From assembly GCF_000498575.2 (NCBI RefSeq), contig NZ_AWSQ01000001.1, positions 1-64,000 of the forward strand: DNA of 64,000 nt. The letters run 5' to 3'. This document shows, piece after piece, positions 23,007-30,584 of this stretch. The DNA comes from Pseudomonas taeanensis MS-3. GTDB lineage: Bacteria > Pseudomonadota > Gammaproteobacteria > Pseudomonadales > Pseudomonadaceae. How positions within the stretch are numbered: position 1 is the first letter of the stretch; each line of letters starts with the position of its first letter. The notes under the pieces were generated by a model. That model was given only the letters and a program-made list of their open reading frames with translations, was not told where the DNA came from and did not search any database. A program made the position numbers and the translations under genes.

Positions 23007-24700
<1,694 letters not shown>

Positions 24701-25322
24701 TACAAGGGTCTCCACGGCGCTAGCCGTTGCGCGGGTCATGCTTTATTATCCAGCATCTTGTGCGACACGCGTAGCGTGTCTCCAGCTTCGCGGTGAGGAG
24801 TCATCGTGAAGGGTTTCCGCAAGGAAACCAAGGGCCCCGGCATCCAATCCAGGGAACCAAAACCAGCCAAGAAGTCCATTGCCTTCAAGGACTTGCCGCA
24901 GCGGCGGTGGCAAAACCCAAGGTCGCCTAGCACTCGGAAGCGCGACTGCGAACCAGCTTCACTAGGTTCTGGAGTGCACACTCAACGGAGGGAAGGCATG
25001 AGCCAAGAAGTCTTTGGTTTTCTCCTGCTGACCTGCCTGCTGTTCTTCTGTAGTGGAATGGCAGTCTGGGCAAAGTGGCCTGAAATAAAGGGCTACCTCG
25101 CTAAGCATAGAGCTCCCCACAAACGTTGACCCTGGCCCTGGCGGCCCCACCCTCGCGGGAGAGAATCCCCGCTGGGGTTCCTCCTGCCTCAGAAACAGGA
25201 GGAAAACTCACCCTGAGCACGCTGCCGTGGCAGTCCCTGCTCACTTCAAACCGGAGACATGAGCGAAAGCTCTGTCTGTCATTGTCCAGCCATTGCCGGT
25301 TCGGAATGGTAGCGGACTCGTT
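24701..25322. other. amgK-intron interval, mostly unassigned
   Basis: About 620 bp between amgK and the group II intron. It holds the 43-aa membrane ORF at 24998-25129 and two clear hairpins: CCTCCTG...CAGGAGG at 25182-25204, and a GAAA-capped stem AGACA(t)GAGC-GAAA-GCTCTGTCT at about 25254-25277. A GTGCGAC identical to group II 5' ends lies at 24760. I see no transposase or other known gene. Some of this may be intron or exon-associated RNA structure. Confidence 0.4.
24998..25129 (+). CDS. small single-pass membrane protein (43 aa), hypothetical
   Basis: A 43-residue frame starting MSQEVFGFLLLT with one hydrophobic segment (about 5-27) and a basic tail ending HRAPHKR. It has an unusually good ribosome site (GGAGGGAAGG) directly before the ATG. 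A longer in-frame reading from 24806 adds 64 low-complexity residues and is not favoured. I do not recognise it. Confidence 0.45.
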   Translation: MSQEVFGFLLLTCLLFFCSGMAVWAKWPEIKGYLAKHRAPHKR

Positions 25323-27756
25323 GTGCGACCAACGATAGCCTAGGGAAACATGCGTCACCGGTAACGGTGGGGTATGAAGCTTTCCCGACAATGTAGCCCC
25401 CGTCAGGGTGCGACCTCGCCGCGAGGCGAGGCGTAGATGCTCGGAGCAGTACCGGGTTGAGGCGCTAGGCTGGCTGGTATGGGCAACGCAAGTGAACTGC
25501 TGATAAACACCGTAAGGATAACCATGCCCAAACTGCTGTTAGGCATGAACCAAAAGGTGCGAGGTCGGTTATCTCCGTAGGATGTGGGGATACGTCGCCA
25601 CTACGACCTCCGGTGAAAAGGCAGGCCCTAACCCAGTCGTGTGACAGATAGGGAACGTGGTAAGCCCGTATCGCTGCCCTAGTGGCAGGCTAGCCGCAAG
25701 GCGAGCTGTTGGCGGTGCGGGTAGGGGATCGCAGAGAAAGCGAACGCCGGGCTGTAATGGTTCGGATAGGGGTTGGAATATCACCCCACGGGAAACCGGG
25801 CAGACTTCTGCGTGGTCTTTCGTCGCATGACCTCTGATTGAACCTGTCTCAATGAACCTCGGGCTCGGCTGTATAGAGCCCAACCTAACCAACCCTGGCG
25901 GGATGCGCGCTTCCCGTCAGGGATCGGCGTGTGTCTTCCGCTCGGGATGGTTCAACCATCTTGAGAGGAAAGCAGCATGAAAGAGCTCAGCCAACAGGCC
26001 GGGTCTGCGCTTTCCGGCGCCCCGCAGCAGTGGCACGACATCGATTGGTGTCGTGTGCAGCGGAACGTCCGGGGAATGCAGGTGCGGATTGCGAAGGCTT
26101 GTCGGGAAGGCGAATGGCGCAGGGTGAAAGCCCTGCAACGGATGCTGACCCGCTCGAAGTCGGCCAGGTATCTGGCTGTACGGAGAGTCACTGAAAACCA
26201 GGGCAAGCGCACGGCGGGAGTCGACCGCGTGCTCTGGGATACACCCGACGCCAAATGGAAAGCGGCACAAGGGTTGAAGCAGCGCGGATATCAGCCACGG
26301 CCTTTACGGCGTGTGTTCATTCCGAAGACGAATGGAAAGGAACGCCCCCTGGGCATCCCGACCATGACCGACAGAGCCATGCAGGCGTTGTATCTGCTGG
26401 CGCTGGCGCCCATCGCGGAAACCACGGGCGATCCGAACAGCTACGGCTTTCGAATCGAACGCTCGACGGCGGATGCGATGGGACAGTTGTTCATCTCCCT
26501 ATCCAAGAAGGCCTCGGCCCAATGGGTACTGGAGGCGGACATACTGGGCTGTTTCGACCATATCAACCATGACTGGCTGATCGCCAACGTCCCAACGGAC
26601 AAGGCGATCCTGCGGAAATGGTTGAAGGCTGGTGTGGTTCACAAAGGCCAGCTACAGGCAACGGATGCAGGTACGCCACAGGGTGGGATTATCTCGCCCA
26701 CCCTGGCGAACATGGTGCTCGACGGCTTGGAATCACAGCTCAAGCAACACCTGGGCGTGACAAGGGCCAAGAAGCTGAAGGTCAACGTGGTGCGTTATGC
26801 GGACGACTTCGTGATCACTGGAGACTCCCCGGAGCTTCTGGAAAGCGAGGTCAAACCCTGGGTAGAGCAGTTCCTGGCGGTACGCGGGCTGCGGTTGTCG
26901 CCCGAAAAGACGCAGATCGTCCATATCGACCAAGGCTTCGATTTCCTTGGATGGAACTTCCGCAAGTACAACGGGAAGCTCCTGATCAAGCCGAGCAAGA
27001 AGAACGTCAAGGCGTTCTATCGCAAGGTGAAGGAAGTCATCGACACCCACAAGACGGCCAGGCAAGAGGATCTGATCCGACTGCTGAACCCGATGCTGCG
27101 TGGCTGGGCGCTGTATCACCAGCCCGTAGTCGCCAAACAGGCGTATAGCCGCATGGACTACAGAGTGTTTCTCAAGCTCTGGCGCTGGGCGAAACGGCGA
27201 CACCCGAACAAGTCGCTGGAATGGATCAGGAAGAAGTATTACCAGACCCAAAGCGAGCAGAACTGGGTGTTTGCCACCACGCTAATGGACGAGTCAGGAG
27301 CAAAGCGGGACGTCGGACTGTACTCGCTTGCGAGTACACCGATCGAGCGGCACAAGAAGGTGAGCGGGGAATACAACCCCTTCGATCCTTCCATGGAAGA
27401 GATGGGCGAGAAACTGCGGATGGAACGGATGCTGAAGAAGCTGAAGTACCGCGAGCAAATCCTTCGCCTGTTCCAGAGTCAGAAGGGACTGTGCGTGCTT
27501 TGCAATCAACCGATTACCAAGGAAACGGGGTGGCACGACCACCACATTATCTACCGCTCACAAGGCGGTGGAGACTCCCTAAATAACCGGGTACTATTGC
27601 ACCCCATTTGCCACCAGCAGCTCCATGCTCGTGGTTTGACAGTATGCAAGCCGGCCCCTTCGGGGGCGTTGTAAAGGCTTGAGCCGTATGCGCTGAAAGG
27701 CGCACGTACGGTTCTTAGGGGGCCCCGATTCCGGCAACGGATTGGGGCCACCCGAC
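25323..27756 (+). mobile_element. group II intron (retroelement)
   Basis: Ribozyme plus retrotransposition protein. The 3' end is clear: domain V at about 27680-27713 (GAGCCGTATG ... CGTACGGTTC with GAAA-containing tip), then a domain VI hairpin (GGCCCCGATT...ATTGGGGCC) ending near CCCGAC at 27756. The 5' end is ambiguous because GTGCGACC occurs at both 25323 and 25408. For 25323, AGCCTAG near 25335 could pair with CTAGGCT near 25466. For 25408, CGACCTCG could pair with CGAGGTCG near 25560. The encoded protein lies in domain IV. Same strand as lptD. Confidence 0.85.
25977..27674 (+). CDS. ltrA: group II intron reverse transcriptase/maturase with HNH endonuclease
   Basis: 565-residue intron-encoded protein that splices and mobilises the intron by target-primed reverse transcription. 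Domains in order: RT fingers/palm with RPLGIPTMTDR near 125 and the catalytic R-Y-A-D-D-F box (YADD 274-277); maturase/X domain (about 350-430, with LNPMLRGWALYH); C-terminal HNH endonuclease with C506/C509, HDHHI and a final CHQQLHA. The full RT-X-HNH layout suggests a mobile intron. Start ATG follows GAGAGGAAAG. Confidence 0.93.
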   Translation: MKELSQQAGSALSGAPQQWHDIDWCRVQRNVRGMQVRIAKACREGEWRRVKALQRMLTRSKSARYLAVRRVTENQGKRTAGVDRVLWDTPDAKWKAAQGLKQRGYQPRPLRRVFIPKTNGKERPLGIPTMTDRAMQALYLLALAPIAETTGDPNSYGFRIERSTADAMGQLFISLSKKASAQWVLEADILGCFDHINHDWLIANVPTDKAILRKWLKAGVVHKGQLQATDAGTPQGGIISPTLANMVLDGLESQLKQHLGVTRAKKLKVNVVRYADDFVITGDSPELLESEVKPWVEQFLAVRGLRLSPEKTQIVHIDQGFDFLGWNFRKYNGKLLIKPSKKNVKAFYRKVKEVIDTHKTARQEDLIRLLNPMLRGWALYHQPVVAKQAYSRMDYRVFLKLWRWAKRRHPNKSLEWIRKKYYQTQSEQNWVFATTLMDESGAKRDVGLYSLASTPIERHKKVSGEYNPFDPSMEEMGEKLRMERMLKKLKYREQILRLFQSQKGLCVLCNQPITKETGWHDHHIIYRSQGGGDSLNNRVLLHPICHQQLHARGLTVCKPAPSGAL

Positions 27757-27821
27757 TTTCAGCCCATCGAGAGGCGTGCGGCCCCTGGGCCGATAGCGCG
27801 CAGGAAGCCCGGAAAAATAAG

Positions 27822-30584
27822 ATGGCAGTAAAATACCCCGCATTCCGTAAAAAATTCCCACTTCTGGTCACTGGCAGCCTTCTTGCCATGCAGCCTGTCG
27901 CGGGTCAATTCGCAATAGCTGCCGAGCAGTATGACTGCCAAGCGTCGGCTTCCGGTAGCTGGGCATGCGCGCCAAAAGCCAGCAGTGCTGTTGTGCCTGC
28001 ACGCCCGGTGCACAGTGGCTCCGCCGTCAGCAGCAGCGCCCCCGCGGACAAGGGCAGTCAGAGCAAAGCCTCTACCGCGACCCTCGTCACGCAAAGCGGT
28101 GGTAAGGCCCTGGCCTCGCGCAGCGCCGACTACAGCCACCTGGACTGGGTGCCGCGCGAGCAACTGAGTGCCGCGCAGCTGGCCGAAACAGGCCCTTACT
28201 GTGCCGGTGCGTACGTTGAACCGAGTCGTCCGGGCATGGGCGACACAACGCCAATGAGCGAATCGCCGATGTTCGTTTCCGCCAAAGCCTCGCGCTATGA
28301 GCAGGAACAACAGGTCGCGACCCTGGCTGGCGATGTGGTCTTGCGCCAATCGAGCCTGCAAGTCGAGGCCGATGAGGCCCGCCTGCTTCAAGCCGAGAAT
28401 CGCGGCGAGCTGATTGGTAATGTACGCCTGCGTGACGATGGCGCGCTGGTGGTCGGCGACCGTGCCGAACTGCAACTGGATAACGGCGAAGCCAAGATCG
28501 ATAACGCCGAGTATGTCCTGCATAAAGGCCATGTACGCGGTAGCGCGCTCTACGCCAAACGCGAAGAGACGGCGATTATCCGCCTGAAGGACGGCACCTA
28601 TACCAGCTGCGAACCCGGCAGCAACGCCTGGCACCTGAAAGGCAACAACGTCACCCTGAATCCCGCCACCGGCTTTGGTACTGCTACCAACGTCACCCTG
28701 CGGGTCAAGGATTTCCCGGTGTTCTATACACCGTATATCCACTTCCCCATCGATGATCGGCGCCAGTCCGGCTTCTTGCCGCCGAGCATCAGCAGCTCCG
28801 GCGATAACGGCCTGACCCTGCAGACACCCTACTACTTCAATCTGGCGCCGAATTACGACGCCACGCTCTACCCGACCTACATGAGCGACCGCGGCCTGCT
28901 CACCGAAGGCGAGTTCCGCTACCTGACCAAGAGTAGCGAAGGTCAGCTGGGCGCAGGCTACATCAGCGACAGCAACGACGACCGCAAGCTGCAATCGGAG
29001 TCCAAGCAACAGCGCTGGCTCTATAGCTGGCAGCACAAGCAAGGCCTCGACTCGCGCCTGCTGGCCGAAGTCGATTACACCGACATCAGCGATCCGTACT
29101 ACTTTCAGGACCTGAGCACCGACCTAGGCATCGATACCACTACCTATGTCAATCAACGCGGCACCCTGACCTACCGTGGTGACAACTACACCGCCCGGTT
29201 GAATGCGCACGCTTACGAGCTGGCCACTATCACCGACATCACCCCATACAACCGCCTGCCGCAGATCACCCTGGACGGCGCCCTGCCGTTTCACCCGGGC
29301 GGCCTGGACTTCAGCTACGGCAGCGAATTGGTGCGCTTCGATCGCGACCTGCGTTCAGGTCTATTCAGCGATGAAAACGGCATTACAACGCCTTGGTATG
29401 ACACGAACTTGCAGGGTCTGGCCCGTGCCAATGGCAATCGCCTGCACCTCGAGCCGGCCGTCAGCCTGCCACTGGACTGGAGCTGGGGCTTCATCAAGCC
29501 GCAGGTCAAGTTCCTGCAAACCAACTATGACCTGAGCCTCGACCAGCAGGGCAAAAACACTCTGCTGGCCGAGCAGGAATTCAGCTCCAGCCAAAACCGT
29601 AGCCTGGCCATGTATAGCGTCGACAGCGGCCTGTACTTCGACCGCGACACCCAATGGTTCGGCAAAGACTTCCGCCAGACCCTGGAGCCACGGTTGTTCT
29701 ACCTCTATGTACCCGAAGAGGACCAGACCGATATCCCAGTCTTCGACACTGGCGAAAGCACCTTCAGCTACTCGTCGCTGTTCCGCGAGAACCGCTTCTC
29801 CGGCAAGGACCGCATCGGTGACGAAAACAAGCTGTCGCTGGGTGTCACTAATCGCTGGATCGAAAGCAACGGCTTCGAACGGCAGCGCTTCAGCATCGGC
29901 CAGGCCTTCTACTTCAAGGACCGCAAGGTGCAACTACCGGGTATCGACGCAAATACCCGTGTCGATGCGCAATCATCCGTATCACCCTACGCACTGGAAT
30001 ACCTGTACCGCTTCAACCGCGACTGGCGCCTGTCCGCGGACTTCAACTGGGACCCGGACACCCACCGCACCCGCTCGGGTAGCACCATGTTTCACTACCA
30101 GCCGGAAGACAACCCGAACAAGATCATCAACGCTGGCTACCGCTACCGCAACGACACTGTGCGATTCGACCAGACCACCGGTAACTGGGTGGTTGGCGGC
30201 GGCGACTTCGGCACACCGGGCACGGCCAACTTCATCAAGGACTACTACAAAGTCAGCCAGCATGACTTCTCGGTGATCTGGCCGATCGTCCCGCAATGGA
30301 GTGCAATTTCCCGCTGGCAGTATGATTACGGCCGCAATCGCACCCTTGAAGCCTTCGCTGGCTTCGAGTACGACAGTTGCTGCTGGAAGCTGCGCGTGGT
30401 CAACCGTTACTGGATCGACTACGACGAAGTCAGCCTGAACCCCTCGCTCAATGATCAGGCCGACACCGGTATCTTCCTGCAAATCGTCCTCAAAGGCCTG
30501 GGCGGCGTGACAGGCAACAAGGTTGAAACCTTCCTCGACCAAGGCATTCAAGGTTATCGTGAACGTGAAGATCAAGCTTTCTGA
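27822..30584 (+). CDS. lptD: LPS assembly outer membrane protein LptD
   Basis: Essential beta-barrel that inserts lipopolysaccharide into the outer leaflet with LptE. 920 residues: signal peptide (1-33), low-complexity linker, LptA-like OstA jellyroll (about 160-290) and a 26-strand barrel to the C-terminus. Disulfide cysteines are at C39, C49, C853 and C854 (DSCCWKL), the expected two pairs. Only 65 bp separate it from the intron 3' end, so native promoter elements may be displaced. Overlaps surA. Confidence 0.96.

Follow-up and report, generated by a model that had tools for sequence, protein, structure and literature searches.

Group II introns of bacteria mostly lie outside housekeeping genes, the exceptions being found in cyanobacteria and in the CL and ML lineages, and a 2015 review distinguishes three kinds of target: homing sites, terminators, and attC sites (PMC4424553). 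Closest to the element treated here is a subset of CL1/IIB1 introns described by Michel, Costa, Doucet and Ferat in 2007, which carries an insertion of up to hundreds of nucleotides near the intron start, according to passages that cite that work (PMC4028801, PMC4465626); boundary programs pick a wrong, inner 5′ end in such introns (PMC4028801). EcI5 and the TeI3/TeI4 introns of T. elongatus, all CL/IIB1, have related proteins and read their targets by two exon-binding sites (EBS1 and EBS2) and by bases near −15, and the parts of that report dealing with their sites place them between genes, in genes, in an insertion sequence, and in other introns, with no promoter preference mentioned (PMC2882425). 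Here we analyze a group II intron inserted ahead of lptD, the essential gene for a lipopolysaccharide assembly outer-membrane protein, in a stretch of 64,000 nucleotides (nt) of Pseudomonas taeanensis MS-3 (contig NZ_AWSQ01000001.1, positions 1 to 64,000), referred to as the window. Judged from sequence comparisons, the lineage of this intron probably targets the −10 box of sigma-70-type promoters, and the copy in the window probably sits where the lptD transcription unit begins.

The complete intron is located at positions 24760-27756 of the forward strand (2,997 nt), based on empty sites, full-length copies elsewhere, and Rfam. Seventeen intronless relatives were taken and the 13 with correctly oriented loci were counted (L014, L015, L018, and L026 were left out; L numbers denote loci compared here). 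In all 13 of these Pseudomonas loci, ...TTTATTATCC..CATCTT runs straight into TTTCAG.CCATCGAG, and the insert is thus exactly the stretch given above. When 57 genomes were searched with the upstream DNA, matches on the side of the neighboring amgK-like gene ended at 24759 or earlier, and the stretch from 24760 onward matched other places in some relatives. Copies elsewhere have the same limits. A 2,837-bp P. aeruginosa record (CP075775.1) starts with GTGCGACACGCG and ends with CTACCCGAC, corresponding to one full intron unit, the same full-length unit is present in the record of phage phi3 (from GTGCGACACGCG to CCCGAC), and the 5′ end of the window intron is identical to that at a locus upstream of tig, available as partial sequence (L012). 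The termini GTGCGAC...CCCGAC correspond to a GUGCG-type 5′ end and an AY 3′ end, and they lie at the exact empty-site junction.

The original prediction gave the extent of the intron as 25323-27756, with the 5′ boundary at one of two copies of GTGCGACC. Comparison with intronless relatives corrects this, since it fixes the junction between 24759 and 24760, and the empty sites and full-length copies place both GTGCGACC copies inside domain I. The first copy (25323) is held in a domain I hairpin, TCGTTG-TGCGAC-CAACGA (25318-25335, forward strand, found by eye), within the RF02012 match at 25317-25464, and the second copy, at 25409, is deeper still. An intron that starts at 25323 and lies beside lptD for reasons unrelated to a promoter is extremely improbable: GTGCGACC does resemble an intron start and the Rfam domain I model begins at 25317, but that 5′ end is refuted by the empty sites, by the copies elsewhere, and by the exon pairing at the true junction described below.

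The insertion point follows a −10-like box, TATTAT (24744-24749, forward strand), which occupies positions −16 to −11 from the intron, is present in 13 of 13 intronless loci, and belongs to the putative lptD promoter. In a scan of a collection of species genomes, 289 loci were found to encode relatives of the intron protein; the best 80 of these loci were examined. All but one (L075) had the GTGCGAC start. Both ends were called for 70 copies, which formed 33 site clusters, and six more 3′ ends were added for covariation. Clustering was done mainly by 3′ flanks because clustering by 5′ flanks, which was abandoned, merged unrelated sites having the box in common. The same site in different species was counted once, the sites being otherwise uncorrected for kinship. 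TANNNT was found at exactly −16 to −11 in 25 of the 33 clusters, compared with a mean of 0.22 and a maximum of four clusters at 134 other offsets. Hexamers with at least four of six matches to TATAAT likewise occurred at −16 to −11 in 25 of 33 clusters, compared with a mean of 0.58 and a maximum of five at other offsets (binomial P ~2e-37). Among the eight clusters without TANNNT at −16, four had it one base further out (L048, L071, L100, and L108), L102 two bases further out, L109 had AATAAT instead, and L037 and L095 had no box.

Seventy-three further loci were collected with a domain V pattern, which occurred in 46 of 398 Pseudomonas genomes and in nine of 398 genomes of the phylum; these loci represent most, not all, of the places with the pattern. 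Fifty-six of the 73 had usable 5′ ends, bringing the total to 136 copies in 53 clusters, or 54 sites, as one hybrid copy (L054) joined the lptD and tig copies into one cluster. The box was located at −15 to −18 in 44 of the 53 clusters. Eight clusters were dropped post hoc as divergent introns, six of them starting with GTGCGACG (L147, L177, L180, L202, L208, and L209) and the other two, L193 and L194, with GTGCGACACGAA. In the 45 clusters that were kept, all six TATAAT positions were enriched, most strongly A−15 (38/45) and T−11 (39/45). The lineage is distributed over Pseudomonas, Burkholderiales, and some other proteobacteria.

Genes, many of them housekeeping genes, begin shortly behind most of these sites. 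Long flanks were available for 30 box sites, and a hand count found the start of a gene or transfer RNA (tRNA) in sense orientation within 200 nt downstream in 27 of them (the misses are L076, L085, and L087). By mechanical gene calls, 32 of the 273 window TANNNT hexamers with comparable quality were so placed (P ~2e-22 for 27/30), as were 32 of 56 when intergenic hexamers served as the yardstick (P ~1e-4), the latter being the fairer comparison if insertions within genes are purged. The distance from intron to start had a median of 37 nt for 24 protein starts (mechanical calls), with 19 under 70 nt, and three tRNAs started ~3 to 7 nt past the intron (by eye and ARAGORN). ARAGORN identified these as tRNA-Met, tRNA-Leu, and tRNA-Tyr. 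Family models identified the downstream genes as lptD, uvrC, a PBP1A-family gene, coaBC, a phosphatidylserine decarboxylase gene, def, ptsN, pyrG, a nucleoside bisphosphate phosphatase gene, ahcY, a YgfZ-like gene, argF, lepA, an FmdB-family gene, acuI, argH, tig, and genes for a cytochrome c, a copper chaperone, a ribonuclease, and an MFS transporter, with a MepK-like gene below the cut-off. By its start, the open reading frame (ORF) downstream of L073 resembles prfB (by eye), and the protein encoded behind L036 has no Pfam match. Empty sites were also searched for at tig and def: alignments of the joined tig flanks spanned the junction in 19 of 29 genomes, with five at 98-99%, and the def flanks crossed it in four of 29, with 15 more matching on the coding side only.

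We searched for the exon-binding sites by scoring aligned intron positions for pairing with each copy's own 5′ exon, that is, with its intron-binding sites (IBS1 and IBS2). EBS1 formed 5.46 of six pairs with its own IBS1 (−6 to −1) and 2.53 with swapped partners, across 38 distinct IBS1 sequences. EBS2, compared with −13 to −8, formed 4.53 pairs with its own exon and 2.71 with swapped partners, and examined cluster by cluster, its five-base core had a perfect partner in 32 of 33 sites. The central A of EBS2, which faces the last T of the box, was invariant (33/33), and the other EBS2 bases varied with the site. In the window, all four elements are on the forward strand. IBS1, CATCTT (24754-24759), located by covariation, forms the end of the 5′ exon and pairs with EBS1, AGGATG (25579-25584), including one G-U pair; EBS1 was assigned by homology with the near-identical L033 and by reading. 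EBS2, AGGATA (25515-25520), came from the covariation search, and IBS2, TATCC (24747-24751), covers the last three bases of the box and has five of five pairs with EBS2 in L033. The partner of EBS2 started at −13 in 24 sites with the box at −16 and at −14 in four of four sites with the box at −17, which indicates that box and IBS2 shift together while their distance to IBS1 changes. Among related introns, EcI5 reads A−15 and A−14 along with other bases, TeI4h reads C−16 and A−15, and TeI4c favors A or T at −13 to −16; in introns of this type the protein reads A−15, or A/T near it (PMC2882425). We infer that the protein recognizes T−16 and A−15 and that EBS2 recognizes the final T of the box, a set that includes the second and last box letters.

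RNA polymerase opens a stretch of DNA that reaches from roughly the −10 box to a little beyond the transcription start. The intron might thus invade open promoter complexes, with IBS1 and IBS2 made single-stranded by the transcription bubble rather than the box being read as sequence. The span of IBS2 plus IBS1 (−13 to −1) fits the melted region, and the fixed position of the box fits as well. We consider this explanation unlikely, given that the intron protein has an HNH domain, that its relatives are reported to melt target DNA themselves (PMC2882425), and that the invariant A of EBS2 and the constant register of the box suggest direct reading of the sequence.

In the reading that we consider probable, the sequence is recognized as follows. 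The box would be recognized in two parts, T−16 and A−15 probably by the protein and the last T by the invariant A of EBS2; the remaining EBS2 bases and EBS1 would match the stretch between box and insertion point, changing from site to site. The intron would land a few nucleotides past the presumed transcription start, at the very 5′ end of the lptD unit, where it would spare the promoter, the ribosome-binding site (RBS), and the coding sequence and gain a host promoter, and lptD mRNA would be made by reading through the intron and presumably splicing it out. Transcription starts 6 to 7 nt past a −10 box. The lptD transcription start would accordingly be near 24755, and the 5′ exon would be ~4 to 6 nt long. 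IBS2 would then be absent from the RNA. Its covariation with EBS2 even so points to selection for DNA targeting. The chances are about even that the lineage has evolved to home to the −10 boxes of housekeeping and tRNA promoters, each copy becoming the first feature of a host transcript, that the two bases read are those mattering most to the sigma factor, and that EBS2 serves mobility only.

Ordinary retrohoming with an A/T-leaning upstream preference is the strongest competitor, and we regard it as quite possible, if somewhat short of an even chance. The protein would read A−15 with the help of easy melting and EBS2 would fix T−11, the promoter itself going unrecognized; promoters would be struck because they are AT rich against a GC-rich genome background and insertions into coding sequence are purged. 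Several observations weigh against promoter targeting, and some of them favor such retrohoming. Related introns favor A−15 or A/T at −13 to −16, via protein recognition or easy melting, with EcI5, TeI4h, and TeI4c as examples (Mohr 2010, PMC2882425), so that part of the box motif may be an intron preference. Three of the 45 kept clusters have no box at −15 to −18: L037/L045, apparently at the rpmG stop codon, L095, at a TAA, and L109, which has AATAAT. A−15 and T−11 are retained at the boxless stop-codon sites L037 and L095. Purifying selection alone would likewise favor leaders over coding regions. The −35 signal is weak: −35 hexamers at 15 to 19 nt spacing had a mean score of 0.87 in the 44 box clusters and 0.11 for 1,131 control TANNNT (P ~0.02), a slight enrichment, and a simpler earlier test gave 2.96 of six versus 2.69, with a control maximum of 2.96. 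A strict scan found no complete promoter at lptD (24600-27900). A box was present in two of the dropped divergent clusters (L180 and L208) and in none of the other six. The EBS2 register has irregular cases, L102 (box at −18) having two equal EBS2 partners, one of them in register, and L081 pairing best three bases further upstream (4.5/5). A 5′ exon of 4 to 6 nt would, moreover, be unusually short for splicing.

Two results weigh against an A/T-leaning preference. AA is still favored at −13 and −12 (27/45 and 25/45, respectively), where EBS2 varies by site, and the proportion of box sites preceding a sense gene or tRNA exceeds that of both window yardsticks. Because the −35 enrichment is slight and the strict scan was empty, the case for promoters is built on the box itself, the closeness of genes, and the shortness of the tRNA leaders. 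The intron boundaries, the register of the box, the gene context, and the covariation of the exon-binding sites with their targets are observed, and we infer that the boxes are active promoters, that the protein takes part in recognition, and that the introns splice.

Downstream of the intron, the 3′ exon (27757-27821, forward strand) is the remainder of the lptD leader as defined by the empty-site alignment, with an RBS-like AGGAAG (by eye), and lptD itself extends from its ATG at 27822 to 30584 on the forward strand (Pfam LptD, E 9.5e-117). The intron end and the ATG are 65 nt apart. By eye, no −10-like box was found in these 65 nt, and a strict consensus sigma-70 scan of 24600-27900 gave no full matches, compared with 1.1 expected; the scan missed the upstream box too. 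An lptD promoter inside the intron or in the 65-nt leader is thus unsupported by a scan that also misses the box at 24744-24749. The original prediction had lptD depend on read-through or on promoters in the intron, with a promoter wholly within 27757-27821 as its counter-case. Read-through stands as the probable reading, no match was found for promoters in the intron, and for the counter-case there was neither a box by eye nor a match in the same limited scan. With the box at 24744-24749 and the RBS and ORF after 27757 intact, lptD is probably expressed through the 3-kb leader intron, spliced or unspliced. In the likeliest case, the native promoter is preserved ahead of the intron, and lptD expression relies on transcripts that run through this 3.0-kb leader or have it spliced out.

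The intron at lptD might not be usefully spliced at all, lptD being transcribed with a 3-kb leader or from an unrecognized promoter within the intron. The very short 5′ exon and the RBS and ORF behind the intron, owing to which translation needs no splicing, make this a realistic though lesser possibility. It is at odds with the absence of a promoter match inside the intron and with the pairing of EBS1 to all six IBS1 bases across sites, though mobility alone could maintain that pairing.

The lptD site is occupied in many genomes. Nineteen copies had lptD flanks on both sides, from 15 genomes including that of the window (duplicate contigs counted once), and introns at this site were scattered over several places in a protein tree (FastTree, 130 rows). 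One of them, L042, grouped with full support with introns from the ponA, def, and tRNA-Met sites. The lptD promoter may have been colonized repeatedly, or introns may have moved away from it. In the hybrid L054 / L150 (P. corrugata), the 5′ flank is that of the lptD promoter and the 3′ flank that of tig, and L054 is probably the result of recombination or rearrangement between two intron copies or a misassembly.

The intron encodes a protein of 565 amino acids (25977-27674, forward strand) with reverse transcriptase (RT), maturase, and HNH domains (Pfam RVT_1, RVT_N, GIIM, and HNH) that scored 380.5 bits against TIGR04416 (cut-off 300). Its closest solved chain is 6me0_C (E 1e-185; next, 2e-37), which we take to be TeI4h, a CL/IIB1 intron protein. 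Domains V/VI (27679-27756, forward strand) matched RF00029 (59.4 bits, E 3.9e-9) and folded with z = −7.2, the A at 27750 being left unpaired in the stem of domain VI as the bulged A. Pfam, TIGR04416, and RF00029 thus agree with the earlier observation of a complete RT-maturase-HNH protein and domains V/VI in sense orientation 65 nt ahead of lptD. The element is apparently a full-length, intact, mobile intron of the IIB1/CL1 type, and splicing and mobility are predicted. Class C introns, as presented in the 2015 review, are likewise specialized on a class of genetic signal (terminators, attC) rather than on one homing site, but they use terminators and lack an endonuclease domain (PMC4424553); the window intron has the HNH domain and a −10 box.

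The same genome contains a compact intron without an ORF (L009, 7176-8005), in which just 66 nt separate the two GTGCGAC motifs, and the window copy therefore carries ~497 nt extra. This 5′ insertion in domain I was placed at 24770-25266 (forward strand) by comparison with L009 and an alignment of eight copies, its limits being set by eye. In 79 aligned relatives, 265 to 588 nt precede the conserved block that follows the insertion, and in the eight-copy alignment the insertion was variable in sequence, that of L034 looking unrelated. At the true 5′ end, ACACG is complementary to CGTGT (25638-25642; by eye), a pairing expected of the base stem of domain I. The insertion contains a 43-codon ORF with an RBS-like start (24998-25129, forward strand), encoding a small hydrophobic peptide and seen just in the window and in P. 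borbori among the loci compared at that stage; this stretch also has short DNA matches in other genomes, at different loci. A twintron, with a second intron preceding this one, is not favored, as Rfam found no second domain V/VI ahead of 25317 at gathering scores and the extra block accompanies the intron in copies elsewhere. The insertion and the 5′-end error are the same as those described for the CL1/IIB1 subset, to which the window intron belongs; the preference for promoter sites is proposed here. The passages citing Michel et al. mention the insertion and the groEL stop codon, not promoters (PMC4028801, PMC4465626). The A. vinelandii groEL intron has a stop-codon site in such accounts, and a relative lineage at an apparent groEL stop codon has 57-63% protein identity. 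By sequence (...GGCATGATGTA up to the insertion point), a groEL stop-codon lineage without a −10 box includes L147, L151, L159, L162, L165, L173, L174, and L186.

Upstream of the intron, an amgK-like kinase gene is divergently oriented (23675-24739, reverse strand; Pfam APH, E 2.5e-40), and its true start codon may be further in; it scored 345.7 bits against NCBIfam NF045759, under the cut-off of 550. The window also has an Rfam match to the Pseudomonas small RNA P10, and relatives named Pseudomonas share the lptD locus.

Several other intron loci were recorded. The P. aeruginosa 'plasmid' CP075775.1 (L031) consists of exactly one full-length intron closed head to tail; the circle is probably an assembly artifact of a multi-copy or tandem intron, a real DNA circle being possible. 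The phage phi3 record (NC_030940; L032, 1-2930) begins with the intron, and the tRNA-Met gene behind it (2854-2930) overlaps the integrase gene at its end; the first part of this record may thus represent host DNA from the attachment site. A phage or plasmid origin of the whole insert was rejected because both suggestive records hold the intron alone or the intron beside a tRNA. L058 has an intron at a tRNA-Met, and in L178 the intron ends just ahead of one. In the genome of the window, L009 (3675-8264) and L010 comprise the ORF-less intron and broken group II introns amid transposase-like sequence, including a further domain V/VI copy that follows the first after ~250 nt. Near the 3′ end of L212 (G424), the CCCGAC that ends one intron is followed directly by GTGCGACC, an arrangement resembling two introns joined head to tail without an intervening base.

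No report of a −10-box preference was recognized from titles and the starts of abstracts in a collection short of most subscription journals, nor is one mentioned in the available portions of PMC4424553, PMC8919778, PMC3522654, PMC12350094, and PMC2882425; Michel et al. 2007 (Biochimie 89:542), which speaks of 'specialized lineages', may contain one.

For annotators, such introns are easily cut at a false inner 5′ end, hiding their true location. If the lineage has indeed evolved to home to −10 boxes, promoters would join homing sites, terminators, and attC sites as a fourth target specificity. The minimal 5′ exon for splicing, the separability of the pairings used in targeting and in splicing, and the opening of DNA by transcription for retrohoming would then become accessible to testing. 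Ty3 of yeast is a retroelement that inserts at the transcription starts of tRNA genes, an LTR (long terminal repeat) retrotransposon brought there by transcription factors and using an integrase. The likeness lies in insertion at transcription starts, and the difference is that here RNA pairs with DNA. Occupying the starts of housekeeping transcripts without touching coding sequence would, if true, be a different survival strategy for a group II intron, parallel to that of Ty3.

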